64,000 nt of DNA, taken from Pseudomonas sp. B33.4 (GTDB lineage Bacteria > Pseudomonadota > Gammaproteobacteria > Pseudomonadales > Pseudomonadaceae). Below, in pieces: positions 31,403 to 44,180 of the stretch. The notes below the pieces were generated by a model, which searched no databases, had not been told where the DNA came from, and saw nothing but the letters and a program-made list of their open reading frames with translations. The translations under genes and the position numbers were made by a program. Every line of letters starts with the position of its first letter. Position 1 is the stretch's first letter. The stretch spans positions 5,447,001 through 5,511,000 of the forward strand of contig NZ_CP140706.1 of the NCBI RefSeq assembly GCF_034555375.1. The letters are read 5' to 3'.

Positions 31403-32305
31403 TCAGAGGCGGCCGGAGAGATCGTCCAGGGCCGCGCGTAAATCCGTGAACTGGAAAGTGAAACCCGCTTCCAGCAAGCGTGCCGGCAGAGCCTTCTGGC
31501 CGCCGAGCAACAACAAAGACATCTCGCCGAGGCCGACCTTCAGTGCCAGCGTAGGCATCGGCATGAACGCAGGGCGGTGTAAAACGCTGCCCAGCGTCTT
31601 GGCAAATTCGCGATTGCGCACCGGTTGCGGCGCGCAGGCATTATAAGGACCAGTGGCCTGCTCGCGGTGCAGAAGAAAATCAATCAGGGCGATTTGATCG
31701 TTGATATGAATCCACGGCATCCACTGCCGGCCATTGCCCAAAGGCCCGCCCAGCCCAAGCTTGAACGGCAGCAACAACCGCGACAAAAAGCCGCCCTCGG
31801 CCGACAGCACCAGACCGGTTCGCACCAGCACCACGCGGATACCCAGCGATTCGGCACGCAATGCGGTTTCTTCCCAGGCGATGCACAACTGGCTGGCGAA
31901 GTCGTCGATCACTGGCGGCGATTCTTCGGTCAACTCGCGCTCACCGCCGTCGCCATACCAGCCGATCGCCGATCCGGAAATCAGCAGCGCCGGTTTCTGT
32001 GTGCGGGTGTCGAGCCACGCCAACAGGGTTTCGGTGAGCTTGATGCGGCTGCTCCACAGCAACGCTTTGCGTCGATGGGTCCACGGCCGATCGGCAATCG
32101 GCGCGCCGGCCAGATTGACGATCGCGTCGACAGGCTCTTCGCCAATATCTTCCAGACGCGCAATGCCACGCACCTGCGCACCACAGATGTTCGCGACTTT
32201 TTCCGGTTTGCGGCTCCACACCGTCAGGCGATGGCCCTGCCCCAACCAGTGTCGGCAGAGCTGACGTCCTATCAAACCAGTACCGCCGGTCAGCAATATG
32301 TGCAT
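31403..32305 (-). CDS. TIGR01777 family NAD-dependent epimerase-like protein (YfcH type)
   Basis: 300 residues. N-terminal Rossmann motif [14 protein letters not shown] (about 3-16) with SDR-type [13 protein letters not shown] (about 62-74) and [10 protein letters not shown] (about 110-119, catalytic Tyr region), plus a C-terminal DUF1731 extension ([14 protein letters not shown]). The enzyme's substrate is unknown. Upstream of hemH in the same unit; the upstream intergenic stretch to 32503 is divergent and carries TTGTACA boxes. Confidence 0.88.
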
Positions 32306-32427
32306 GACATCTTCCTCGCGTGGCGTTTAACCCGGATCACTAGTCTATTTTTATAAGCAGGGATCTTTTCTATCGGGCAGGCTCTATTGTTTAACCATAG
32401 GCCAAGCTGTCAGAACGAGAACGCTAG

Positions 32428-33701
<1,274 letters not shown>

Positions 33702-33708
33702 AGATCCT

Positions 33709-33796
33709 GTAGGAGTGAGCCTGCTCGCGATAGCGTCGTATCAGTCAGCATCAATGTTGCTGACATACCGCAATCGCGAGCAGGCTCACTCCTACA
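33709..33796. repeat. Inverted REP pair (GTAGGAGTGAGCCTGC family)
   Basis: Forward copy from 33709 and inverted copy ending at 33795. It separates the two putative light-regulated units. Confidence 0.9.
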
Positions 33797-33819
33797 GTGA
33801 ACTGCGTTCAATCAAAAAA

Positions 33820-33894
33820 GTTATACAAATGATTTGACTTGTACACCCATGAATCTATGCTGAAGAAAGTTGTACAGAGATAAACCTCTGTATA
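33820..33894 (+). promoter_or_regulatory. Promoter and putative LitR/CarH-type operators before the MerR-photolyase operon
   Basis: TTATACA (33821-33827) and TTGTACA (33839-33845) start exactly 18 bases apart, as in the promoter at 32430. A second TTGTACA is at 33870-33876 and CTGTATA at 33888-33894. TTGACT (33834-33839), 16 bases and TATGCT (33856-33861) form a credible sigma-70 promoter covered by the boxes. The regulator is most likely the MerR protein encoded second in the operon (inference). Confidence 0.65.
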
Positions 33895-33914
33895 GGTATA
33901 GATCCGAGGTGCCC

Positions 33915-34877
33915 ATGTCTGATCCTTGCGTAGCCAAACCAAAAATCGCCATCAGCGCCTGTCTGCTCGGTGCCGAGGTGCGCTACAACGGTGGGCACAA
34001 GGAATCTCGGCTGTGCAGCCGCACCCTCACCGAGCATTTCGATTTCGTCCCGGTGTGTCCGGAGGTCGCAATCGGCCTGGGCATTCCCCGCGAGCCGATC
34101 CGCCTCGTCGGTGATCCAGAACATCCTGAAGCCATCGGCACGGTAAATCCGGCGATCAACGTCACCCGGCCATTGGCCGAATATGGCGAGCAAATGGCCG
34201 CCGAACTGGATGACATCTGCGGCTACATCTTCATGCAGCAATCGCCGTCCTGTGGTCTGGAACGGGTCAAGGTCTACCACGCCAACGGCGCCCCGGTGAA
34301 CGGCGGCGGACGCGGGATCTACGCCCAGGAGTTCTGCGCCCGTCATCCGGATCTGCCCGTGGAAGAAGCCGGTCGCCTCAACGATCCAGTGTTGCGCGAG
34401 AATTTCATCACCCGCGTATTCGCCTATAGCGAATGGCAACAAGTCATCGCCCGAGGCTTGAGCCGCCGCACGCTCACCGAATTCCATTCGCGCTACAAAT
34501 ACTTGCTGATGGCGCACAACCCGCTGCAATACAAAACACTGGGCAAACTGCTCGGCAACATGGCGCACAGCGATCCCGCCGAACTCGGCCCGCACTACTT
34601 CAGCGAACTGATGGCGGCGTTGAAAAAATGCGCCACGCGCGGCACCCACTGCAACGTGCTGCTGCATATCAGCGGTTATCTGAAACAAGTGATCAGCGCC
34701 GAAGACAAACAGGAAATGGTCCACGTCATCAGCCAATACCGCCTCGGCATTGTGCCCTTGGTGGTGCCGTTGACGCTGCTCAAGCATCACTTTCGCCTCC
34801 ATCCGGACCCGTACATCGCGCAACAGGTTTACCTGCAACCGCACCCGGAAAACCTCAGTCTGCGAAACGCCATCTAA
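33915..34877 (+). CDS. DUF523 plus DUF1722 protein (YbgA-like fusion)
   Basis: 320 residues. N-terminal DUF523 (about 8-150) with CLLGAEVRYNGGHK, FVPVCPEVAIGLGIPRE and QQSPSCGLERVKVY; conserved Cys occur in ISACLLG, PVCPEV and SPSCG. C-terminal DUF1722 (about 195-310; SRYKYLLMAHNPLQYKTLG). The fusion is common in proteobacterial photolyase operons but its reaction is unknown; the Cys pattern suggests metal or nucleophile chemistry (inference). Its stop overlaps the MerR start (TAATG). Confidence 0.88.
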   Translation: MSDPCVAKPKIAISACLLGAEVRYNGGHKESRLCSRTLTEHFDFVPVCPEVAIGLGIPREPIRLVGDPEHPEAIGTVNPAINVTRPLAEYGEQMAAELDDICGYIFMQQSPSCGLERVKVYHANGAPVNGGGRGIYAQEFCARHPDLPVEEAGRLNDPVLRENFITRVFAYSEWQQVIARGLSRRTLTEFHSRYKYLLMAHNPLQYKTLGKLLGNMAHSDPAELGPHYFSELMAALKKCATRGTHCNVLLHISGYLKQVISAEDKQEMVHVISQYRLGIVPLVVPLTLLKHHFRLHPDPYIAQQVYLQPHPENLSLRNAI

Positions 34878-35818
34878 TGAACGACAAACTCGATAGCAGT
34901 GCCCAGGAAGACCTTGGCGCTGATTTTAAAAAAGCCCTCGACGAAGGCTGGCTGCCGATTCGCGAAGTCGCGCGGCAGACTGGCGTCAACGCCATCACCC
35001 TGCGGGCATGGGAACGCCGCTACGGGCTAGTGGTCCCGCAACGCACGCCGAAGGGGCACCGGCTCTACTCGGCCGAACATGTGCAGCGAATTCTGACCAT
35101 CCTCACCTGGCTCAACCGTGGCGTGGCAGTCAGTCAGGTCAAACCACTGCTCGACACGCCACTGGCGTTCAGCGAATCGGTGGAAAACGACTGGCAACGC
35201 TTGCGCCAGACGTTGCTGACCGCCGTCACGCAACTCAGTGAACGCAGCCTCGATGACAGCGTCAATCAGGCCATGGCCCTCTATCCGCCACGCACGTTGT
35301 GCGAGCAATTGCTGATGCCGCTGCTGGCTGAACTGGAGCAGCGCTGGCAGGGCCAATTCGGCGCGCAGATGGAGCGGGTGTTTTTTTACTCGTGGTTACG
35401 CAGCAAATTCGGCGCACGCATCTACCATAACAATCGTCAGTTAAATGCTGCCCCGCTGTTGTTGATCAATCATTCCGACCTGCCACTGGAACCTCACCTG
35501 TGGCTATGCGCGTGGCTGATCAGCAGCGCCGATTGCCCGGTGCAAGTATTGGACTGGCCGTTGCCGGCCGGTGAATTGGCACTGGCCGTGGAACACCTGC
35601 AAGCCCGTGGCGTACTGCTGTATTCCAGCAAAGCCATGAACCTTGCGCAGTTGCCGAAACTATTGAACGGAGTCAGTTGCCCAAAAATGCTGGTCGGACC
35701 AACGGTATGCATCCACCACGCCGAGTTGTCCGTAAGAACTTCCGAGATTGTTGATTTGTTCCTGGCTGAAGATCCGCTGATGGCGCACCAGGTACTCGTT
35801 CAGCGTGGGCTGATTTAA
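34877..35818 (+). CDS. MerR-family regulator, LitR/CarH-like (class II)
   Basis: 313 residues. N-terminal MerR winged helix (about 25-95; LPIREVARQTGVNAITLRAW, RYGLVVPQRTPKGHRLY). The middle and C-terminal parts follow the CarH/LitR layout of a helical linker and a Rossmann-like domain, but I do not see the E/DxHxxG cobalamin-binding motif, so it fits class II LitR, which lacks B12. From memory such regulators in P. putida act with a LOV photoreceptor. Predicted autoregulator of this operon. Joined to neighbours by TAATG overlaps. Confidence 0.82.
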   Translation: MNDKLDSSAQEDLGADFKKALDEGWLPIREVARQTGVNAITLRAWERRYGLVVPQRTPKGHRLYSAEHVQRILTILTWLNRGVAVSQVKPLLDTPLAFSESVENDWQRLRQTLLTAVTQLSERSLDDSVNQAMALYPPRTLCEQLLMPLLAELEQRWQGQFGAQMERVFFYSWLRSKFGARIYHNNRQLNAAPLLLINHSDLPLEPHLWLCAWLISSADCPVQVLDWPLPAGELALAVEHLQARGVLLYSSKAMNLAQLPKLLNGVSCPKMLVGPTVCIHHAELSVRTSEIVDLFLAEDPLMAHQVLVQRGLI

Positions 35819-37284
35819 TGGACGCAGTGAGTTCCGACATGCAATTGATCTGGCTGCGCAGCGACTTGCGCCTACATGACAACACCGCCCTCGCGGCCGC
35901 CGCAGCGCGCGGCCCGACGGTCGCGGTGTACCTGTTGAGCCCGCAACAGTGGCTGGAACATGACGACGCCCCCTGCAAGGTCGATTTCTGGCTGCGCAAT
36001 CTCAGTGAACTGAGCAACAGCCTCGCCGCGTTGAACATTCCGTTGTTGATCCGCACCGCAGCGCACTGGGATCAGGCCCCGGCGGAGCTGCTCGAACTGT
36101 GTCGGCAATTGAACATCGAAGCCGTGCACGTCAACGAAGAGTACGGCGTCCACGAAAGCCGTCGCGACGCAGCGGTGGCCGAAACACTGAAGGCCGAGGG
36201 CATCACCTTTCACAGCCATCTCGACCAGTTGCTGTTCAAACCCGGCACTGTGCTGACCAAGACCGACAGCTATTTCAAGGTGTTCAGCCAGTTCCGCAAA
36301 GTCTGTTACGAACGTCTGCACCGCTCGATGCCCGCCCTGATCAAGGCGCCCGGCAAACAAAGCGCATTGCAGATCGACAGCGACCCGATTCCCGACTCCG
36401 TCAAAGGCTTCGCCACACCGAGCCAATCCCTGCGCGATCTGTGGCCCGCCGGCGAACAGGAAGCCCGGCGCCGTCTCGACACCTTCACCGACGCGCAGAT
36501 CGACTACTACCAGAGCGAACGCGACTTCCCGGCCAAACCTGGCACCAGCCAGCTCTCGGCGTATCTGGCGGCGGGTGTGATTTCGCCGCGCCAGTGCCTG
36601 CACGCCGCCCTGCAAAGCAATCAAGGCGAGTTCGAAAGCGGCAAGGTCGGTGCGGTCACCTGGATCAACGAGTTGCTGTGGCGCGAGTTCTATAAACATA
36701 TTCTGGTCGGCTATCCACGGGTCTCCCGGCACCGCGCCTTTCGCCCGGAAACCGAAGCGCTGGCCTGGCGTGATGCGCCGGACGAACTCGCCGCCTGGCA
36801 AGAGGCGCGCACCGGTCTGCCGATCATTGACGCGGCCATGCGCCAATTGTTGGAAACCGGCTGGATGCACAATCGCCTGCGCATGGTCGTGGCGATGTTC
36901 CTGACGAAAAACCTGTTGATCGACTGGCGCGAAGGCGAACGCTTTTTCATGCGTCACCTGATCGACGGGGATCTTGCGGCGAACAACGGTGGCTGGCAGT
37001 GGAGCTCTTCGACCGGCACCGACTCGGCGCCTTATTTCCGCATCTTCAATCCACTGAGCCAGTCGGAAAAATTCGACAGCGAAGGCCTGTTCATCAAGCA
37101 CTGGTTGCCGGAACTGGCCGACCTCAACAAAAAAGAATTGCACAACCCGGCCAACCTCGGTGGTTTGTTCGGTGCGGTGGATTATCCGTCGCCGATCGTC
37201 AACCTCAGTGACTCACGCCAACGGGCACTGGCAGCCTTCAAGAACCTGCCTGCGCGTACGTCTTCAGGAGGCGATGATGAGTGA
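35818..37284 (+). CDS. phrB: Deoxyribodipyrimidine photolyase (class I CPD)
   Basis: 488 residues. N-terminal DNA photolyase antenna domain (LIWLRSDLRLHDNTAL, about 9-24), FAD domain with KPGTSQLSAYLAAGVISPR (about 239-257), WINELLWREFYKHI (about 281-294), and the conserved GGWQWSSSTGTDSAPYFR (about 392-409). It repairs cyclobutane pyrimidine dimers with blue light. Flanked by the MerR gene (1-base overlap) and the NTF2-like gene (8-base overlap). Confidence 0.95.
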   Translation: MDAVSSDMQLIWLRSDLRLHDNTALAAAAARGPTVAVYLLSPQQWLEHDDAPCKVDFWLRNLSELSNSLAALNIPLLIRTAAHWDQAPAELLELCRQLNIEAVHVNEEYGVHESRRDAAVAETLKAEGITFHSHLDQLLFKPGTVLTKTDSYFKVFSQFRKVCYERLHRSMPALIKAPGKQSALQIDSDPIPDSVKGFATPSQSLRDLWPAGEQEARRRLDTFTDAQIDYYQSERDFPAKPGTSQLSAYLAAGVISPRQCLHAALQSNQGEFESGKVGAVTWINELLWREFYKHILVGYPRVSRHRAFRPETEALAWRDAPDELAAWQEARTGLPIIDAAMRQLLETGWMHNRLRMVVAMFLTKNLLIDWREGERFFMRHLIDGDLAANNGGWQWSSSTGTDSAPYFRIFNPLSQSEKFDSEGLFIKHWLPELADLNKKELHNPANLGGLFGAVDYPSPIVNLSDSRQRALAAFKNLPARTSSGGDDE

Positions 37285-37699
37285 ATTCCTGCGCCGCTTC
37301 GCCCGGCAGTTTTCAGCGTTGAACAAAGACAACCTGCAAAGCCTGGGCAAGCTGTACAGCGATGACATTCACTTCACCGACCCGTTGCACGAGGTTCAGG
37401 GGCTGGCGCAGCTACGCGACTATTTCGGCGAGTTGTACGCCAACGTCAGTGAACTGCGCTTCGACTTTCATGGTTTCGACCAGATCGGCGACTGCGAAGG
37501 CTACTTGCGCTGGGTCATGAGTTATCGCCATCCGCGCCTGGCGGGCGGCCGTGTGATTCGCGTCAGCGGTTGCTCGCACTTGCTGTGGCACGACAAGGTT
37601 TATCGCCACCGGGATTATTTCGATGCCGGGGCGCTGCTGTATGAACATTTGCCAGTATTGGGCCGGGTCATCGCCTGGCTGAAAAGGAGAATGGGATGA
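37277..37699 (+). CDS. NTF2/SnoaL-like small protein
   Basis: 140 residues with the cone-shaped NTF2-like fold pattern (LYSDDIHFTDPLHEVQGLAQL, about 27-47; key Asp30, Asp36; later ending WHDKVYRHRDYFDAGALLYE). Family members act as isomerases, hydrolases or binding proteins, so activity is open. Start at 37277 is chosen for AGGAGG (37266-37271) five bases away; a tandem ATG at 37274 is too close. Overlaps phr by 8 bases and the SDR gene by 4. Confidence 0.82.
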   Translation: MSEFLRRFARQFSALNKDNLQSLGKLYSDDIHFTDPLHEVQGLAQLRDYFGELYANVSELRFDFHGFDQIGDCEGYLRWVMSYRHPRLAGGRVIRVSGCSHLLWHDKVYRHRDYFDAGALLYEHLPVLGRVIAWLKRRMG

Positions 37700-38478
37700 G
37701 TCGTACACCTCCACGGCGTTATTGGCTGACCGGTGCCAGCAGTGGCATCGGCGCGGCTCTGGCTGAGGAAATTCTGAAAACCGGCGCACACCTGGCGGTC
37801 AGTTCCCGTCAGACCGCGCCGCTCAAAGTCTTGTCGCAACGCTATCCAGGGCAGGTTTTAGTAGTGCCGGGGGATCTGACCAACAGCCAGACAGTGCGCG
37901 AAATCGGCGAGCAGATCGCCGAGGACTGGGGTTCGCTGGACTCGGTAATTCTCAATGCCGGCACCTGCGAATACGTGGATGCCAAGCAGTTTGATTCTTC
38001 GATCATCGAGCACGTGGTGCGCACCAACCTGCTCGCCAGCAGTTATTGCATCGAGGCCGCCCTGCCGCTGTTGCGTAAAGGCACCGCGCCGCATCTGATC
38101 GGCGTGGCCAGCTCGGTGACCTATCTGCCGCTGCCACGGGCCGAAGCCTACGGCGCCTCGAAGGCCGGTTTGCGTTACCTGTTCGAATCGCTGCGCATCG
38201 ATCTTGCCGACGAAGGCATCGAAGTCACCGTGGTCAGCCCGGGCTTTGTCGAGACACCGCTGACCGCCAAAAATGATTTCCCCATGCCCTTGAGCTGGCC
38301 TGTGGATAAAGCCGCGCGGCACATTTTCGCCAAACTCAAGGACCGGCCATTGGAAATCGCCTTTCCGGCGTTGTTCATGGCCGCGCTTTGGCCGCTGTCG
38401 AAACTGCCGTCACGGGTCCAACTGGCAATCGGCAAGCGCATGGTGCGCAAGTCACCTCCGCTGACGGATCCGACATGA
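37696..38478 (+). CDS. Short-chain dehydrogenase/reductase
   Basis: 260 residues. TGASSGIGAALAEEIL (about 12-27) is the NAD(P)-binding motif, NAG near 90, and the catalytic YGASKAG (about 153-159) with the upstream Ser give a complete SDR triad. The substrate is unknown; in context an acyl-chain or lipid carbonyl is suggested (inference). ATGA overlaps on both sides. Confidence 0.88.
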   Translation: MSRTPPRRYWLTGASSGIGAALAEEILKTGAHLAVSSRQTAPLKVLSQRYPGQVLVVPGDLTNSQTVREIGEQIAEDWGSLDSVILNAGTCEYVDAKQFDSSIIEHVVRTNLLASSYCIEAALPLLRKGTAPHLIGVASSVTYLPLPRAEAYGASKAGLRYLFESLRIDLADEGIEVTVVSPGFVETPLTAKNDFPMPLSWPVDKAARHIFAKLKDRPLEIAFPALFMAALWPLSKLPSRVQLAIGKRMVRKSPPLTDPT

Positions 38479-39722
38479 AAATCGCCATCGTCGGCAGCGG
38501 CATCGCCGGGCTGACCTGCGCCTACCTGCTCAATCGCCGCCATGAAGTGACGGTGTTCGAGGCGGGCGACTGGGTCGGTGGCCACACGCACACTGTGCCG
38601 GTGACCGTCGATGGCCGCCAATATGCGGTGGACACCGGCTTCATCGTGTTCAACGACTGGACCTACCCGAACTTCATCCGCTTGCTCGGCCAGCTCGGCG
38701 TGGCGTTCAAGCCGACGGAGATGAGTTTCTCGGTGACCGACCCGGACACGGGCCTGGAATACAACGGCAACAACCTCAACAGCCTCTTCGCCCAGCGCAG
38801 CAATCTGTTTTCGCCGGGGTTCTGGGGCATGTTGCGCGACATTCTGCGCTTCAACAAAGAAGCCCAGCGCGACCTCGTCGAACTGCGCATCGCCGCTGAC
38901 ACCACCCTCGACGACTACCTCAAGGCTGGTGGTTACGGCGAACGCTTTATCCTGCATTACATCGTGCCGATGGGCTCGGCGATCTGGTCGATGCCGATGG
39001 CGGAAATGCTCAATTTCCCGCTGCAGTTTTTTGTGCGGTTCTTCAAGAACCATGGGCTGTTGTCGGTCAGCGATCGGCCGCAATGGCAAGTTATCGAAGG
39101 TGGTTCCAGCGCCTATATCACGCCGCTAACAGCTGGGTTCAAGGACAGGATTCGTCTCAATTGCCCGGTGACACGGGTTGATCGCGATGCGCATGGCGTG
39201 GTTATCCACAGCCCGGCGGGGCTCGAACACTTCGATCAGGTGGTGTTCGCCTGCCACAGCGATCAAGCGTTGCAACTGCTGGCGGTCCCGAGCGATGCCG
39301 AACGCGCGATCCTCGGTGCCCTGCCCTACGCCGACAATGAAGTGGTGCTGCACACCGACACGCGTTTGCTGCCGACACGCAAACTGGCCTGGGCGAGCTG
39401 GAACTATCGGCTCAGCGGCGCCGGCCACACCCACGCCGCCGTCACCTACGACATGAACATTCTGCAGGGCATTCAGAGCGACACCACGTTCTGCGTAAGC
39501 CTCAATCAGAGCGCCGGCATCAGCCCCGACAAAGTGCTCGCCCGTTACACCTACGCCCACCCACAATTCAGCCTCGCGGCGGCGGCCGCACAGCAACGCT
39601 GGGGCGAACTGGATGGCGCGCAACACACGCATTATTGCGGCGCCTATTGGGCCAATGGTTTTCATGAGGATGGTGTGGTCAGCGCCTTGCGCGTGGCTGC
39701 CGCATTCGGGGAAACCCTATGA
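38475..39722 (+). CDS. FAD-dependent amine oxidase-like flavoprotein
   Basis: 415 residues. Begins MKIAIVGSGIAGLTCAYLL with the FAD dinucleotide motif, EAGDWVGGHTHTV (about 34-46), TGFIVFNDWTYPNF (about 57-70) and a C-terminal flavin-contact region HYCGAYWANGFHEDGV (about 387-402). This protein family, with DUF1365 and Cfa-like partners, recurs in bacterial clusters tied to photo-oxidative stress; a desaturase role on membrane fatty acids (as in furan fatty acid synthesis) is an inference from family partnership. Confidence 0.85.
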   Translation: MKIAIVGSGIAGLTCAYLLNRRHEVTVFEAGDWVGGHTHTVPVTVDGRQYAVDTGFIVFNDWTYPNFIRLLGQLGVAFKPTEMSFSVTDPDTGLEYNGNNLNSLFAQRSNLFSPGFWGMLRDILRFNKEAQRDLVELRIAADTTLDDYLKAGGYGERFILHYIVPMGSAIWSMPMAEMLNFPLQFFVRFFKNHGLLSVSDRPQWQVIEGGSSAYITPLTAGFKDRIRLNCPVTRVDRDAHGVVIHSPAGLEHFDQVVFACHSDQALQLLAVPSDAERAILGALPYADNEVVLHTDTRLLPTRKLAWASWNYRLSGAGHTHAAVTYDMNILQGIQSDTTFCVSLNQSAGISPDKVLARYTYAHPQFSLAAAAAQQRWGELDGAQHTHYCGAYWANGFHEDGVVSALRVAAAFGETL

Positions 39723-40534
39723 ACAGCGCCCTTTACAGTGGCTGGATCGGTCATCGGCGCTTCTCACCGCGCCGCCATGAATTCCGCTACCGGATCGGTT
39801 TGCTCTACCTCGACCTCAGCGAACAGGATGCGGTGCTTGCACTGTCGCCGCTGGCCGGACGCAGCCGATTTGCGCCGTTTTCATTTCGTGAGACTGACTA
39901 CCTGAAGACCTTTACCGGCCGTGGCATACGCCTGATCGATGCCGTACGCCAGCAGGTCGGCATTGCCATCGGCCACGAACCGCAAGGCTCGATCTGCCTG
40001 CTGACCCAGGCGCGCAGTTGGGGGTTGTCGTTCAACCCGGTGAGTTTCTTTTACTGCCATGAGGCGGACGGGCAACTCGCCGCAATCGTCTGCGAAGTCA
40101 CCAACACGCCGTGGCGCGAGCGTTATCACTATGTGCTACCGGCACGCCCGCCCGCCGACCTGCAGGATTTTCATCAGCACTTCGCCGTGGCCAAAGCCTT
40201 TCACGTCTCACCGTTTTTGCCGCGCGATCTTGAATACCGCATGAGCTTCAGCCCCGCCGCGCAAACCCTCGGCGTGCACATGGCCGACTGGCAGGGCGAG
40301 CACAAATTGTTCGACGCGACACTCAATCTGCAACGCGAAATCCTTGATCGCCGCAGCTTGCACCGGTACTTGCGGCGCTTTCCGTGGATGACCGCGAAAA
40401 CTGCCCTGGCGATTTACTGGCAGGCGCTGCGGCTGTTGCTCAAACGCGCACCGATCTTTGCTCATCAGGCTGCCGACGGCAGCTTTCAAACCGCCACTGT
40501 GCCTCCCAAGGAGCACCGCCATGAAATCCTCTAG
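39719..40534 (+). CDS. DUF1365 protein
   Basis: 271 residues: ALYSGWIGHRRFSPRRHEFR (about 3-22), LLTQARSWGLSFNPVSFFYC (about 93-112) and PFLPRDLEYRM (about 162-172). DUF1365 proteins are nearly always encoded beside the flavin oxidase and Cfa-like methyltransferase; function unknown. Its end overlaps the Cfa gene by 14 bases. Confidence 0.85.
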   Translation: MNSALYSGWIGHRRFSPRRHEFRYRIGLLYLDLSEQDAVLALSPLAGRSRFAPFSFRETDYLKTFTGRGIRLIDAVRQQVGIAIGHEPQGSICLLTQARSWGLSFNPVSFFYCHEADGQLAAIVCEVTNTPWRERYHYVLPARPPADLQDFHQHFAVAKAFHVSPFLPRDLEYRMSFSPAAQTLGVHMADWQGEHKLFDATLNLQREILDRRSLHRYLRRFPWMTAKTALAIYWQALRLLLKRAPIFAHQAADGSFQTATVPPKEHRHEIL

Positions 40535-41786
40535 CCTGTCGGTCAGTCGGCTCAGCACCAACGGTTTGACCGGGTCGTTGCTGCGTCGCGGCGTATTGCG
40601 TCAATTGTCTCAGCTCAAACACGGGCAATTGATGGTGGTCGAGGATGGCGAACGGCTGATGTTCGGCACGCCGGGCAGTGCCTTGCTCGGGGAAATCCAT
40701 GTGCTCGACTCGGCCGTCTGGGGCATGGTCGCCGGCAACGGTTCGATTGGTGCCGGTGAGGCCTTTATCCACGGCTATTGGAGTTCGCCGGATCTGACAG
40801 CGGTGGTGCGCGTGTTCGTCAGTAACCTGGAGGTGCTTGATGCGATGGAGGGCGGGCTGGCCCGCCTCGGTAGGCCGTTGGTGCAAGGCCTGCATTGGCT
40901 CAATCGCAATACGCGCAAGGGTTCGCAGAAGAACATCGCCGCGCACTATGACCTCGGCAACGATCTGTTCGAGCAGTTTCTCGATCCAACCATGATGTAT
41001 TCGGCGGCGCAGTTCCTTACGCCCGAAGACAGCCTCGAACAGGCGCAGCTGAACAAGCTGGAGCGGATCTGCCAGAAACTCGCGCTGCAACCCGGCGACC
41101 ATTTGCTGGAGATTGGCACCGGTTGGGGCAGCATGGCGCTCTACGCCGCACAAAATTACGGTTGCCGCGTAACCACCACGACCCTGTCGAAAGAGCAGTA
41201 CGCATTTACCGCAAAGCGCATTGAGCAACTGGGCTTGCAGGATCGGGTCACGCTGCTGCTCAAAGACTACCGCGACCTCACTGGCGAATACGACAAACTG
41301 GTGTCGATCGAGATGATCGAAGCAGTCGGTCACCGTTTCCTGCCGACCTACTTCAAACAGTGCGCGCACTTGCTCAAGAGCAACGGCCTGATGCTGATCC
41401 AGGCGATCACCATCCGCGAGCAGCGCTACGAGCAGGCCAAACGCGGCGTCGATTTCATCCAGCGCTACATCTTCCCCGGCGGTGCCCTGCCCTGCGTGCA
41501 GAAAATGCTCGAAGTGGTCAGCCGCGACACCGACATGAACCTGCTGCACATGGAAGATTTCGGCCTGCATTACGCCAAGACCCTGCGCCTGTGGCACGAA
41601 AACTTTCGCCGTGCCCATGGTCGTTTGAGCGAGTTGGGTTATGACGATTACTTCCTGCGGCTGTGGGAGTTTTACCTGTGTTACTGCGAGGGCGGCTTCC
41701 TCGAACGCACCATCGGCACTGCGCAATTGTTGCTGGCCAAACCGGCCGCGATGACGGCGCCGCTGCTCGGACGCTTCGATGCTTGA
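40521..41786 (+). CDS. Cyclopropane-fatty-acyl-phospholipid synthase family methyltransferase
   Basis: 421 residues. N-terminal helical region (1-120), then the SAM domain with HYDLGNDLFEQFLDPTMMYS (about 141-160), LEIGTGWGSMALYAAQNYG (about 196-214) and EMIEAVGHRF (about 268-277). It transfers a methyl or methylene group from SAM to an unsaturated acyl chain of a phospholipid; the group includes Cfa itself and UfaM-like enzymes of furan fatty acid synthesis. It probably is not the main Cfa because of its operon with a flavin oxidase and DUF1365. Confidence 0.88.
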   Translation: MKSSSLSVSRLSTNGLTGSLLRRGVLRQLSQLKHGQLMVVEDGERLMFGTPGSALLGEIHVLDSAVWGMVAGNGSIGAGEAFIHGYWSSPDLTAVVRVFVSNLEVLDAMEGGLARLGRPLVQGLHWLNRNTRKGSQKNIAAHYDLGNDLFEQFLDPTMMYSAAQFLTPEDSLEQAQLNKLERICQKLALQPGDHLLEIGTGWGSMALYAAQNYGCRVTTTTLSKEQYAFTAKRIEQLGLQDRVTLLLKDYRDLTGEYDKLVSIEMIEAVGHRFLPTYFKQCAHLLKSNGLMLIQAITIREQRYEQAKRGVDFIQRYIFPGGALPCVQKMLEVVSRDTDMNLLHMEDFGLHYAKTLRLWHENFRRAHGRLSELGYDDYFLRLWEFYLCYCEGGFLERTIGTAQLLLAKPAAMTAPLLGRFDA

Positions 41787-42270
41787 GCGTGTCGCCAATG
41801 CCGTGTTGTTCCAGCTCGGCTGGCTGACCTGTGTACTCAGCGGCAACAGCTTGTGGTTGTTGCTGGCGTTGGCGGTGCTGGTGATCCATCTGCGCTGGAT
41901 CAGCAGTTGGGCGGCTGAAGGCCGTTTGATTTTGAGCGTGGTAATTGTCGGCACCGCTGTGGACAGTCTGTTGCGCGGTGTCGGCGTGTTCGAATTTCAG
42001 GATCAGTCGCCGCTGATTCCACTGTGGTTGATGCTGCTCTGGGCGCTGCTGGCGACCACGTTGCGCCATTGCCTGCAATGGAGCGCGCGGCCGTGGTGGC
42101 TGGCCAGCGTACTAGGCGCAGTCGGCGGCGCGTTGTCGTATTACGCTGGCGGGCGACTGGCCGGAGTGCAATTTCCCTACGGCGAACTGCCGACCCTGCT
42201 CGGCATCGGCCTGCTCTGGGCACTGCTGTTTCCGCTGCTGCATGCGATGGCGCGACGGCTGGCGCACTGA
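41779..42270 (+). CDS. DUF2878 membrane protein
   Basis: 163 residues with four to five hydrophobic segments (LLLALAVLVIHL near 27-38, ILSVVIVGTAV, LWLMLLWALLATT, LLGIGLLWALLFPLL). DUF2878 is an inner-membrane family of unknown function. Last of the nine overlapping genes, sharing 8 bases with the Cfa-like gene. Confidence 0.82.
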   Translation: MLERVANAVLFQLGWLTCVLSGNSLWLLLALAVLVIHLRWISSWAAEGRLILSVVIVGTAVDSLLRGVGVFEFQDQSPLIPLWLMLLWALLATTLRHCLQWSARPWWLASVLGAVGGALSYYAGGRLAGVQFPYGELPTLLGIGLLWALLFPLLHAMARRLAH

Positions 42271-42322
42271 GCGTCTGTCAGACCTTTCACACGCACAGCG
42301 GCGACTGCCTTACACTGCCGCC

Positions 42323-42628
42323 ATGAAAACCATACCCCACCAGCAAATCACCGAGCCTGCGGTCACCTGCTCGACCTGCGCGGCGTGCTGCTGCCAGCTC
42401 GAAGTGATGCTGATCACCGACACCGGCGTGCCAGATCGCTTTATCGATACCGATGAGTGGGGCGGCGAAGTCATGCTGCGGCTGGACGACGGCTGGTGCG
42501 CGGCGCTGGATCGCGACACGATGATGTGCACGATCTATGAGAAACGGCCGTTGATCTGCCGCGAGTTCGAGATGGGCGCGCCGGAATGCATTGAAGAACG
42601 CAAAGGCATCACCACTGCCTACCGCTGA
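42323..42628 (+). CDS. YkgJ-family cysteine cluster protein
   Basis: 101 residues. N-terminal CSTCAACCCQ (about 17-26) and later WCAAL, MMCTIYEKRPLICREF (about 73-88), the YkgJ pattern thought to bind a zinc or iron-sulphur ion. Function unknown. It begins 52 bases after the light operon; co-transcription is possible but not shown. Confidence 0.88.
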   Translation: MKTIPHQQITEPAVTCSTCAACCCQLEVMLITDTGVPDRFIDTDEWGGEVMLRLDDGWCAALDRDTMMCTIYEKRPLICREFEMGAPECIEERKGITTAYR

Positions 42629-42652
42629 TCCCAAGAACACCCCAAAACAAAT

Positions 42653-42740
42653 GTAGGAGTGAGCCTGCTCGCGATAGCGGTGTGTCAGTCAATATATGTG
42701 TGACTGACACACCGCTATCGCGAGCAGGCTCACTCCTACA
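42653..42740. repeat. Inverted REP pair (GTAGGAGTGAGCCTGC family)
   Basis: Forward copy from 42653 and inverted copy ending at 42739. The spacer holds GTGTGTCAGTC/GACTGACAC, so the whole 88 bases forms an extended hairpin between convergent genes. Confidence 0.92.
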
Positions 42741-42757
42741 GGGGTTATGCGTTCGGC

Positions 42758-43276
42758 TTACAACGGCATCGTGTAATGCAGCGAGTAACTTTCTACACCG
42801 TCGTTGCTGCTGGCCAGGCCGGCGTTGGAATAGTGCGTCGCACGAATCCCGACTTCATGCCCGCCATTGAAACGCAGACCAAAACCGAGGCGGTCTTCAA
42901 ACTGGAAAGAGCCGCCGAGATTGTTGGATTCGTACTTGGTGTTAGAGAAGGCCGCCACACCGATCCCCGCTTCGATATACGGTTTGACCGACTGACCGGC
43001 AAACTCATAAACAAACACCGGCGAGAACGACAAGCTGTTATTGCTCGACGTCTTGTCACCTTCCCAATAGGTATAAGCACCGCTCCAGTAACCGGTCAGG
43101 CGACCGACGTCGCTCTGCAGCCAGCTCTTGTCCCAGTCGAAATTCATGCCCAGGCGGTACGTCATGGTCGAATCGCTGGTGGCCCCCACCGCGAACTCAA
43201 CACCGGCCGCTTGCGCAGTAATACTTTGCCCCATCAGTGCGGCCGCAATCGCGGCCAAGCAGAATAGTCGCTTCAC
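42758..43276 (-). CDS. pagL: Lipid A 3-O-deacylase PagL
   Basis: 172 residues. Signal peptide ends near residue 22 (QSITAQ-AAGVEF), followed by an eight-strand outer-membrane barrel pattern. The catalytic triad is visible: His148, Ser150 (in RATHYSNAG) and Glu162 in the precursor, which become 126, 128 and 140 if the mature protein begins at residue 23, exactly the numbering known for the P. aeruginosa enzyme. It removes the 3-O acyl chain of lipid A. Confidence 0.92.
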   Translation of the reverse strand: MKRLFCLAAIAAALMGQSITAQAAGVEFAVGATSDSTMTYRLGMNFDWDKSWLQSDVGRLTGYWSGAYTYWEGDKTSSNNSLSFSPVFVYEFAGQSVKPYIEAGIGVAAFSNTKYESNNLGGSFQFEDRLGFGLRFNGGHEVGIRATHYSNAGLASSNDGVESYSLHYTMPL

Positions 43277-43388
43277 GTTGAAACTTCCTTTTCCGGAACG
43301 ATCGTTTGGTTTTCTAGATAACTCTTCGCTATAGAAGCTAGCGCCTGCTCAGAAGTTCAGCTGAAGTTTTAGTTATTTCACGATTTTT

Positions 43389-44180
43389 TTACAAGCTGAA
43401 GTTTTGCACTTCGCCGGCACTCTGGCCCAATAGCGGCAGGATTTTTTTCAAGTACGCAGGATCGGCGCTGGTCCAGAATCTGACCGCCTGGTTCGGGCCG
43501 GCAGCGAGCAAATCGCGCTCCGCCAAAAGCCGCTGAAGTTGCCGCGCTACAGCTGCGCCAGTATCGATCAGGCTGATGTCCTCGGGGATCATCGACCTGA
43601 GCATCGGCTTGAGAAAGGGATAGTGGGTGCAGCCCAAAATGATCGTGTCGCAACCGCTGGCCAACAGTGGCTCGACATAACCTTGCAGCAGTTGGCGCAA
43701 CGCGGCGCTGTGCAGATCGCCGCTTTCAATCAGCTCGACCAGGCCGGGGCATGGCTGGGTGATTACCCGCACGTCAGTGGCGAAGCGATCGAGCAATGCG
43801 GCGAACTTGGCGCTCTGCAACGTGCCGGTGGTCGCGAGCACGCCGACGACACCGCTGCGGGTCGCAGCCGCCGCTGGTTTGACCGCAGGCTCCATACCGA
43901 CAATCGGCCAGTCGGGAAAGTCGCGACGCAAATCGGCAACGCCGGCAACCGTGGCCGTATTGCAGGCCAGCACCAACGCCTTGGCGCCTTGCTCACGGAA
44001 AAACCCAGCCATCACGCTGCAACGCTGACGAATGAATTCCGGGGTTTTCTCACCGTAGGGAATGTGCCCGCAATCGGCGACATAGAGCAACGTTTCATTG
44101 GGCAGCAAACGCTGGATTTCCGCCAGCACCGACAAGCCGCCGACACCGGAGTCGAACACGCCGATCGGCGCTTCACGCAT
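43389..44180 (-). CDS. murI: Glutamate racemase
   Basis: 263 residues. [14 protein letters not shown] (about 6-19), catalytic Cys in LACNTATV (about 71-78) and second catalytic Cys in LGCTHYPF (about 183-190). It supplies D-glutamate for peptidoglycan. Start at 44180 is chosen; a longer frame to 44252 would lie inside moeB. Overlaps moeB by 8 bases and ends the hemA operon. Confidence 0.95.

Follow-up and report, generated by a model that had tools for sequence, protein, structure and literature searches.

Why would a bacterium keep a DNA photolyase, a MerR-family regulator and enzymes that modify fatty acids in one unbroken chain of genes? The question is raised by a stretch of 64,000 nucleotides from Pseudomonas sp. 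B33.4 (assembly GCF_034555375.1, contig NZ_CP140706.1, positions 5,447,001 to 5,511,000; hereafter the window, to which all unlabelled coordinates refer), in which nine co-directional genes occupy positions 33915-42270 of the + strand. We found that they are the orthologue of an already known Pseudomonas light operon controlled by a class II LitR protein (the pplR1/pmlR1 type), and we consider it very likely that the operon works as follows. In the dark, LitR would sit on two operators, one at the -35 element and one in the leader, and keep a single promoter shut. Blue light would make a short LOV flavoprotein, whose gene lies elsewhere in the genome next to that of a second LitR, bind LitR and bring it off the DNA. 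The one message then made would yield RudS, removing near-ultraviolet-absorbing 4-thiouridine (s4U) from tRNA, the photolyase PhrB, repairing pyrimidine dimers, and LitR itself. It would also yield UfaM, UfaD and UfaO, which would turn the cis-vaccenoyl chains of phospholipids into furans by methylation, desaturation and ring closure with O2, with a SnoaL protein, a short-chain dehydrogenase (SDR) and a DUF2878 protein as accessories. Three responses to light damage would stand under one repressor, and the operon contains two domains, DUF1365 and DUF1722, whose functions have become known only recently (PMC7380195, PMC11417400).

Gene content of the operon

The first gene, rudS (33915-34877), codes for a TudS desulfidase fused to DUF1722 (PF04463, 124 bits; PF08349, 144 bits; TudS structure 6z92, 31 bits). 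Its translation places Cys16, Cys48 and Cys113 where RudS_KT has its three iron-sulfur cysteines (Cys17, Cys49 and Cys114), and we predict that the protein is RudS, an eraser of 4-thiouridine in tRNA. Removal of s4U has been shown for RudS_KT, a tRNA 4-thiouridine desulfidase, and rudS is described as frequent in light-responsive operons, one of which encodes PhrB, LitR and RudS (PMC11417400). The second gene, litR (34877-35818), combines a MerR helix-turn-helix domain (PF13411) with B12-binding_2 (PF02607); a Pfam search found no B12-binding domain (PF02310) in it, and its score against the CarH model, 81.6 bits, is under the cut-off of 400. This composition is the definition of class II LitR given in PMC9758184, and by its domains the regulator is one, as the first-pass annotation of the window had sensed in calling it a LitR-like MerR protein. 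The third gene, phrB (35818-37284), encodes a DNA photolyase of the E. coli PhrB type (NF007955, 533 bits, over the cut-off of 506).

The remaining six genes are snoaL (37277-37699; SnoaL/NTF2-like, SnoaL_2, PF12680, 55 bits), sdr (37696-38478; PF00106), ufaD (38475-39722; flavin amine-oxidase type, PF01593 and PF13450), predicted to encode the flavin-dependent enzyme that desaturates acyl chains in the furan pathway, ufaO (39719-40534; DUF1365, PF07103, 251 bits), predicted to carry out its oxygen-inserting step, ufaM (40521-41786; CMAS, 300 bits), a Cfa-related acyl methyltransferase dependent on S-adenosylmethionine, and a last gene encoding a DUF2878 protein (41779-42270; PF11086, 146 bits). 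The seven families named in the first-pass annotation were confirmed with Pfam and NCBIfam, and its pairing of DNA repair with acyl-chain modification holds; genes 1 and 9 went unnamed there, and with the first of them, RudS, the tRNA arm was overlooked.

Promoter and LitR operators

We searched for operators with the consensus T(G/A)TACA-N12-TGTA(C/T)A, taken from PMC9758184. Site 1 (TATACA-N12-TGTACA, 33822-33845), an exact match, overlaps the -35 hexamer of a promoter TTGACT-N16-TATGCT (33834-33861, + strand). This is the sole sigma-70-like site found in 33600-42800, its score alone not being significant (shuffles average 2.5 sites). The expected transcription start, 48 bp before the ATG, falls just after the -10 element, and site 2 (TGTACA-N12-TGTATA, 33871-33894) lies between this start and the first ATG, the same place as Site 2 of the published promoter P6650. 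An Rfam scan of 32000-43500 gave no match, so no RNA element was recognized in the leader.

Exact operators occur at four places in the 6.6-Mb genome of B33.4, two of them at this operon and one each in loci L039 and L040 (L and G numbers are our labels for loci and genomes), against none for the reversed control pattern. In L039 (L039:7501-9129) the gene that starts 66 nt beyond the site is photolyase-related (PF04244), a cryB-like target. Summed over 59 genomes of the genus, B33.4 included, there are 200 exact places on one strand versus 7 for the reversed control. A ufaO match was present in 45 of these genomes; leaving out our own and G020, whose match was at chance level, gave 44 loci in 43 genomes, namely 36 in which the furan genes are combined with litR-phrB, 7 split snoaL-sdr-ufaD-ufaO-ufaM-DUF2878 modules and 1 degenerate second copy. 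Of the 44 relatives, 43 have at least one exact operator no more than 300 nt from the first gene, 35 of them two, and the promoter-like pattern recurs in 32 of the 36 combined loci.

The probable light circuit

The pmlR1 region of P. mendocina NBRC 14162 (PME6650-PME6610) and the pplR1 region of P. putida KT2440 have been described as a class II LitR light operon (PMC9758184). In P. mendocina, blue light raises phrB 27-33-fold and ufaM 25-33-fold, and the nine genes, whose starts overlap or lie near the preceding stops, are inferred to form one polycistron from RNA sequencing (RNA-seq) and quantitative reverse-transcription PCR. The promoter P6650 reads TTGACT-N16-TATGAT; PmlR2 sites of the form TGTACA-N12-TGTACA lie at its -35 element and in the leader, and transcription starts 48 bp before the ATG (PMC9758184). 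Four of the nine genes are hypothetical in the published description of PME6650-PME6610; the gene set and order fit.

A second LitR, 37% identical to that of the operon, is encoded at position 1041027 of the B33.4 genome (G000). Beside it, at 1042587, is a short LOV gene of 158 residues, whose product scores 246 bits against PDB chain 7yx0, also matches several chains named 'Sensory box protein', and has a candidate adduct cysteine at position 54 as counted in the translation, PmSB-LOV having Cys53. The same neighborhood (L038:3712-8063, G000 1038712-1043063) holds a GTP cyclohydrolase I gene, an SDR that we take to be folM-like, the second LitR, an open reading frame of 219 amino acids with no Pfam match and the short LOV gene together.

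The genes and their order, the operators, the promoter-like site and this LitR/LOV pair, as well as the UfaM residue discussed below, are all present in the B33.4 sequence. Light induction, the function of the operators, the action of the LOV protein on LitR and the activities of RudS and the Ufa enzymes have been demonstrated by others in relatives, and we infer that they hold in B33.4 too. The first-pass annotation had imagined a light-induced unit joining DNA repair to acyl-chain modification; the published induction of phrB and ufaM in the orthologous operon bears this out, which makes the unit a known one and not a new one. The published trigger in Pseudomonas is blue light, relayed to LitR by a short LOV protein, and not the singlet-oxygen response to which the first-pass annotation likened the gene families.

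Several observations weigh against this reading. The RNA-seq behind the P. mendocina polycistron has n = 1; pmlR1, the second gene, rises only 6-10-fold against the 25-33-fold of phrB and ufaM; and DNA binding and LOV-dependent release were shown in P. mendocina for PmlR2, not for the operon's own LitR (PMC9758184). PmlR2 also binds folM DNA there (PMC9758184), and our own folM-folE region (L038) contains no LitR site with two or fewer mismatches. The exact site in L040 sits inside an OprD-family porin gene, one relative (L093) has no operator by either the exact or a relaxed pattern, and two further loci (L135 and L141) have litR with no exact operator. On the furan side, single deletions of RSP1087, 1088 or 1089 leave the fatty acids of Rhodobacter unchanged (PMC7380195), and one of these three genes is probably the SDR, judging by comparison with locus L186.

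Two modules under one kind of operator

The same gene set was searched for in other Pseudomonas, a check proposed along with the first-pass annotation. All nine genes are present in order in 30 of the 36 combined loci; in the rest, a profile search missed DUF2878 three times, snoaL twice and rudS once, these related sequences not being independent events. The seven split ufa modules carry operators of their own. Locus L101 (G046) is a decayed furan module, a second copy with a split ufaD in which no ufaM was found.

Among 21 further litR loci, 20 were fetched (G024 was left out, and G015 has only a paralogue), from 14 genomes without the ufa core and 6 with the core elsewhere. In all 20 of them rudS, litR and phrB stay together, an SDR is present in 13 of 20, and an exact operator lies near rudS in 15 of 20. 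Leftover pieces of ufaM and/or DUF2878 were found in L112 and L116; in L112 (G041), the end of ufaM and DUF2878 follow phrB. Outside the genus we fetched 40 of 92 phylum matches, mostly the better-scoring ones (92 of 299 phylum genomes matched, the genus included). There, ufaD and ufaO occur together in 40 of 40 loci, a photolyase lies within the stretch in 16 and litR in 7, and an exact operator is found in the stretch in 5 of the 7 litR loci versus 1 of the 33 others. Since ufa modules split off with their own operators and rudS-litR-phrB is kept without the ufa core, repair genes and furan genes behave like separate modules governed by the same type of operator, the furan module being split off or lost largely as a unit.

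The predicted furan fatty-acid module

UfaM, UfaD and the DUF1365 protein UfaO build a methyl-furan acid from cis-vaccenoyl chains, and the Ufa system has been linked with singlet-oxygen stress in Rhodobacter sphaeroides (PMC7380195). E. coli carrying a Halomonas ufaM produced an intermediate of furan fatty acid synthesis (PMC12089945). By comparison with homologues from related genomes, all three furan enzymes are present in the operon, UfaO with its DUF1365; the flavin oxidase, DUF1365 and Cfa-like proteins are predicted to be UfaD, UfaO and UfaM. The likeness to photo-oxidative lipid genes of other bacteria noticed at first pass was right. UfaD is 42% identical to the UfaD-like protein of locus L163, whose best named relatives are Rhodobacterales. 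Furan fatty acids have been shown in alphaproteobacteria; for Pseudomonas, the published use of the gene name ufaM implies their production, and we infer a furan product in Pseudomonas as well, with accessory roles for SnoaL, SDR and DUF2878. The expected product, by analogy, is a furan fatty acid reached through methylated intermediates, not a cyclopropane one. An SDR lies near ufaD in 71 of the best 80 loci (L164-L243) out of 595, nearly all Rhodobacterales. As a guess, the SDR of ufaD loci may act on products of furan oxidation.

The protein that would close the furan ring, UfaO, was modeled with a pLDDT (predicted local distance difference test) score of 84.6. Fold searches with the model gave weak barrel matches only (a lipocalin/nitrobindin-like barrel was considered), and a sequence search against solved structures found no match for UfaO. 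A classical iron or metal site was sought and is not apparent, H12 being the only histidine identical in 161 of 161 homologues, the others less conserved.

It is possible, though we think it unlikely, that the operon is light-regulated and makes only methylated or diene acyl chains in B33.4, the last step being weak or its substrate different. The UfaO of the window is divergent, at 25-35% identity to 49 other aligned UfaOs, the reductant of UfaO is given as unknown in PMC7380195, and in the literature covered furan fatty acids are not reported from cells of Pseudomonas. However, nine UfaO residues (H12, R14, P107, Y138, K159, V163, S164, P165 and Y173) are invariant in all 161 homologues, and UfaO stays with UfaD in every one of the 40 loci fetched outside the genus.

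UfaM and cyclopropane synthases

Cyclopropane fatty acids, with light altering the membrane by cyclopropanation, would be the other product to expect from a Cfa-like enzyme in a light operon. UfaM does belong to the CMAS/Cfa family and aligns with three Cfa structures at 172-202 bits, but its scores are below the Cfa cut-offs (282.6 vs 400, 276 vs 600 and 250.2 vs 650), while a separate CfaB in the B33.4 genome passes its own (754.6 vs 650). Aligned with these structures, UfaM has Gln in place of the Cfa His and Ala in place of the Cfa Cys. All 104 UfaM homologues that scored >340 against the profile, that of the window among them, have the Gln and also keep the Glu and Tyr; as open frames they are 350-799 residues long. 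Of the other 12 sequences, 10 have His, our CfaB among them, and 2 have Gln, namely the partial L112 and the divergent L226, the latter coming from a ufaD locus. The Cys position is no clean marker, with 4 Cys, 4 Ser, 1 Ala and 1 Gly in the 10 non-UfaM homologues. Within our data ufaM is always in ufaD/ufaO loci, although the UfaM homologues come from loci that were chosen via those genes.

In a tree of 45 of the 116 sequences, the operon-type sequences group together, with two caveats: no single branch sets the 'operon' rows apart, as L226, sorted by score as unlinked, falls among them, and the branch of our CfaB is long (2.59), so its placement is unsure. The Cfa His, presumably H266 of E. 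coli Cfa, helps hold bicarbonate. Bicarbonate is the ring-closing base in Cfa (PMC10491745). Actinobacterial 10-methyl fatty acid enzymes keep the bicarbonate site of Cfa (PMC7791843); an intact site is therefore no proof of a cyclopropane product and a changed one is only suggestive.

We conclude that UfaM is probably not a cyclopropane synthase, and the cyclopropane product, rejected on the scores under the cut-offs and the Gln at the His position, is highly unlikely. Of the methylated, furan or cyclopropane chains foreseen in the first-pass annotation, the furan chain reached via methylated intermediates is the one to expect and the cyclopropane falls away. Across all 116 sequences, the His-to-Gln change separates the methyltransferases of the furan pathway from Cfa-type homologues, and it could aid annotation, which confuses the two.

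Overlapping genes and the transcription unit

Consecutive genes of the operon overlap by 1, 1, 8, 4, 4, 4, 14 and 8 bp, as read from the sequence and its open reading frames, and a crude gene caller of our own returned the identical nine starts and ends; the chain of overlaps reported at first pass is thus real. It had been presented as unusual and as implying one coupled message. We sampled 449 kb of the B33.4 genome in 21 stretches, the window being one of them. Overlaps occur in 67 of the 273 co-directional pairs there (24.5%), and there are two runs of nine overlapping genes, this one and L051:3118-13513, in which three genes were tested and have Pfam families of the arn operon, the name that we presume it bears. 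With start codons picked by rule, the last six junctions mostly overlap in relatives (34 of 34, 41 of 42, 36 of 44, 43 of 44, 43 of 43 and 36 of 40), and the first two are poorly kept as overlaps (rudS-litR 15 of 35, litR-phrB 16 of 36). A nine-gene overlap chain is uncommon, then, but not unique. Because a second run exists and two junctions are not conserved, the overlaps are not diagnostic, and we rejected them as the key feature.

That this is one transcription unit is better supported by the order of the genes and the pair of operators than by the overlaps. Several abutting units, with the overlaps reflecting genome compaction, would suit the quarter or so of co-directional pairs that overlap, the other nine-gene run, the two unconserved junctions, the ufa part standing alone with its own operators and the unequal fold changes in P. 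mendocina (PMC9758184), but this is scarcely credible with no operator (up to one mismatch) and no promoter-like site (simple consensus scan) inside the operon, all nine genes in order in most combined loci, and a single polycistron inferred by the authors of PMC9758184.

The operon is flanked on both sides by inverted repeats of look-alike TGTAGGAGTGAGCCTGCTCGCGATAGCG type, seen by eye at 33708-33801 and 42652-42742, which we take to be REP-like. Just downstream, at 42323-42628, is a small gene with a putative zinc- or iron-chelating domain (PF03692) that is present in 33 of the 44 related loci.

A renalase gene with a LitR-type operator

Upstream of the operon, a renalase-type FAD oxidase gene (32503-33489, + strand) overlaps by 4 bp a gene for a small Trp-rich protein (TIGR02450/DUF2389; 33486-33701, + strand; TIGR02450 at 73 bits, over the cut-off, and PF09493), which occurs in 31 of the 44 related loci. 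The renalase gene is preceded by a LitR-type operator with one mismatch (TATACC-N12-TGTACA, 32432-32455). Searching the 150 nt upstream, we found such an operator (at most one mismatch) in 34 of 34 related loci with a renalase gene, 4 of the sites being exact, against 0 of 2261 background windows of 150 nt. In a wider stretch of 19 further loci it was found in 17 (7 exact), L113 and L116 being those without it, and in distant loci the half-sites stay while the spacer differs.

Renalase repairs isomers of NAD(P)H. Considering the conserved operator, we lean slightly towards the view that the renalase-TIGR02450 pair is a second LitR arm for light-induced cofactor repair, so that one photoreceptor circuit would guard nicotinamide cofactors besides DNA, tRNA and membrane lipids, and that the His-to-Gln change of UfaM goes with the loss of ring closure. 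The conserved operator before renalase would bring cofactor repair into the light regulon. Among the papers listed in a literature search, none describes renalase as light-controlled, though the 19 light-induced genes of P. putida may include it. To the published operon our analysis adds the operator at renalase, the pattern of two modules and the Gln signature of UfaM.

Comparison with known systems

The operon of the window resembles the pmlR1/pplR1 regions in its nine genes, the named ones being in the same order, in its TTGACT-N16 promoter, in two operators at the same places, in a separate LitR with a short LOV protein and in a cryB-type target. It differs from P. mendocina in its -10 element, TATGCT and not TATGAT, and in that no operator was seen at folM in L038. 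A GTP cyclohydrolase I gene lies close to the LitR/LOV pair both in L038 and in the pmlR2 region. The predicted RudS of the window shares the TudS-DUF1722 fusion and the three cysteines with PP_0741 and other RudS proteins, and the renalase-type protein matches the bacterial renalase of PDB 4zcc over all 328 residues (596 bits), its gene being the one preceded here by a LitR-type operator.

The furan part is like the RSP1091-1087 operon of R. sphaeroides together with RSP2144 in having UfaD, a DUF1365 UfaO and UfaM. The similar operon of Rhodobacter sp. SY28-1 (L186) has an SDR too, with MFS and DUF3833 genes where the window has SnoaL and DUF2878. In R. sphaeroides, however, ufaM is located elsewhere and control is by ChrR, whereas in the window ufaM lies within a LitR-type operon.

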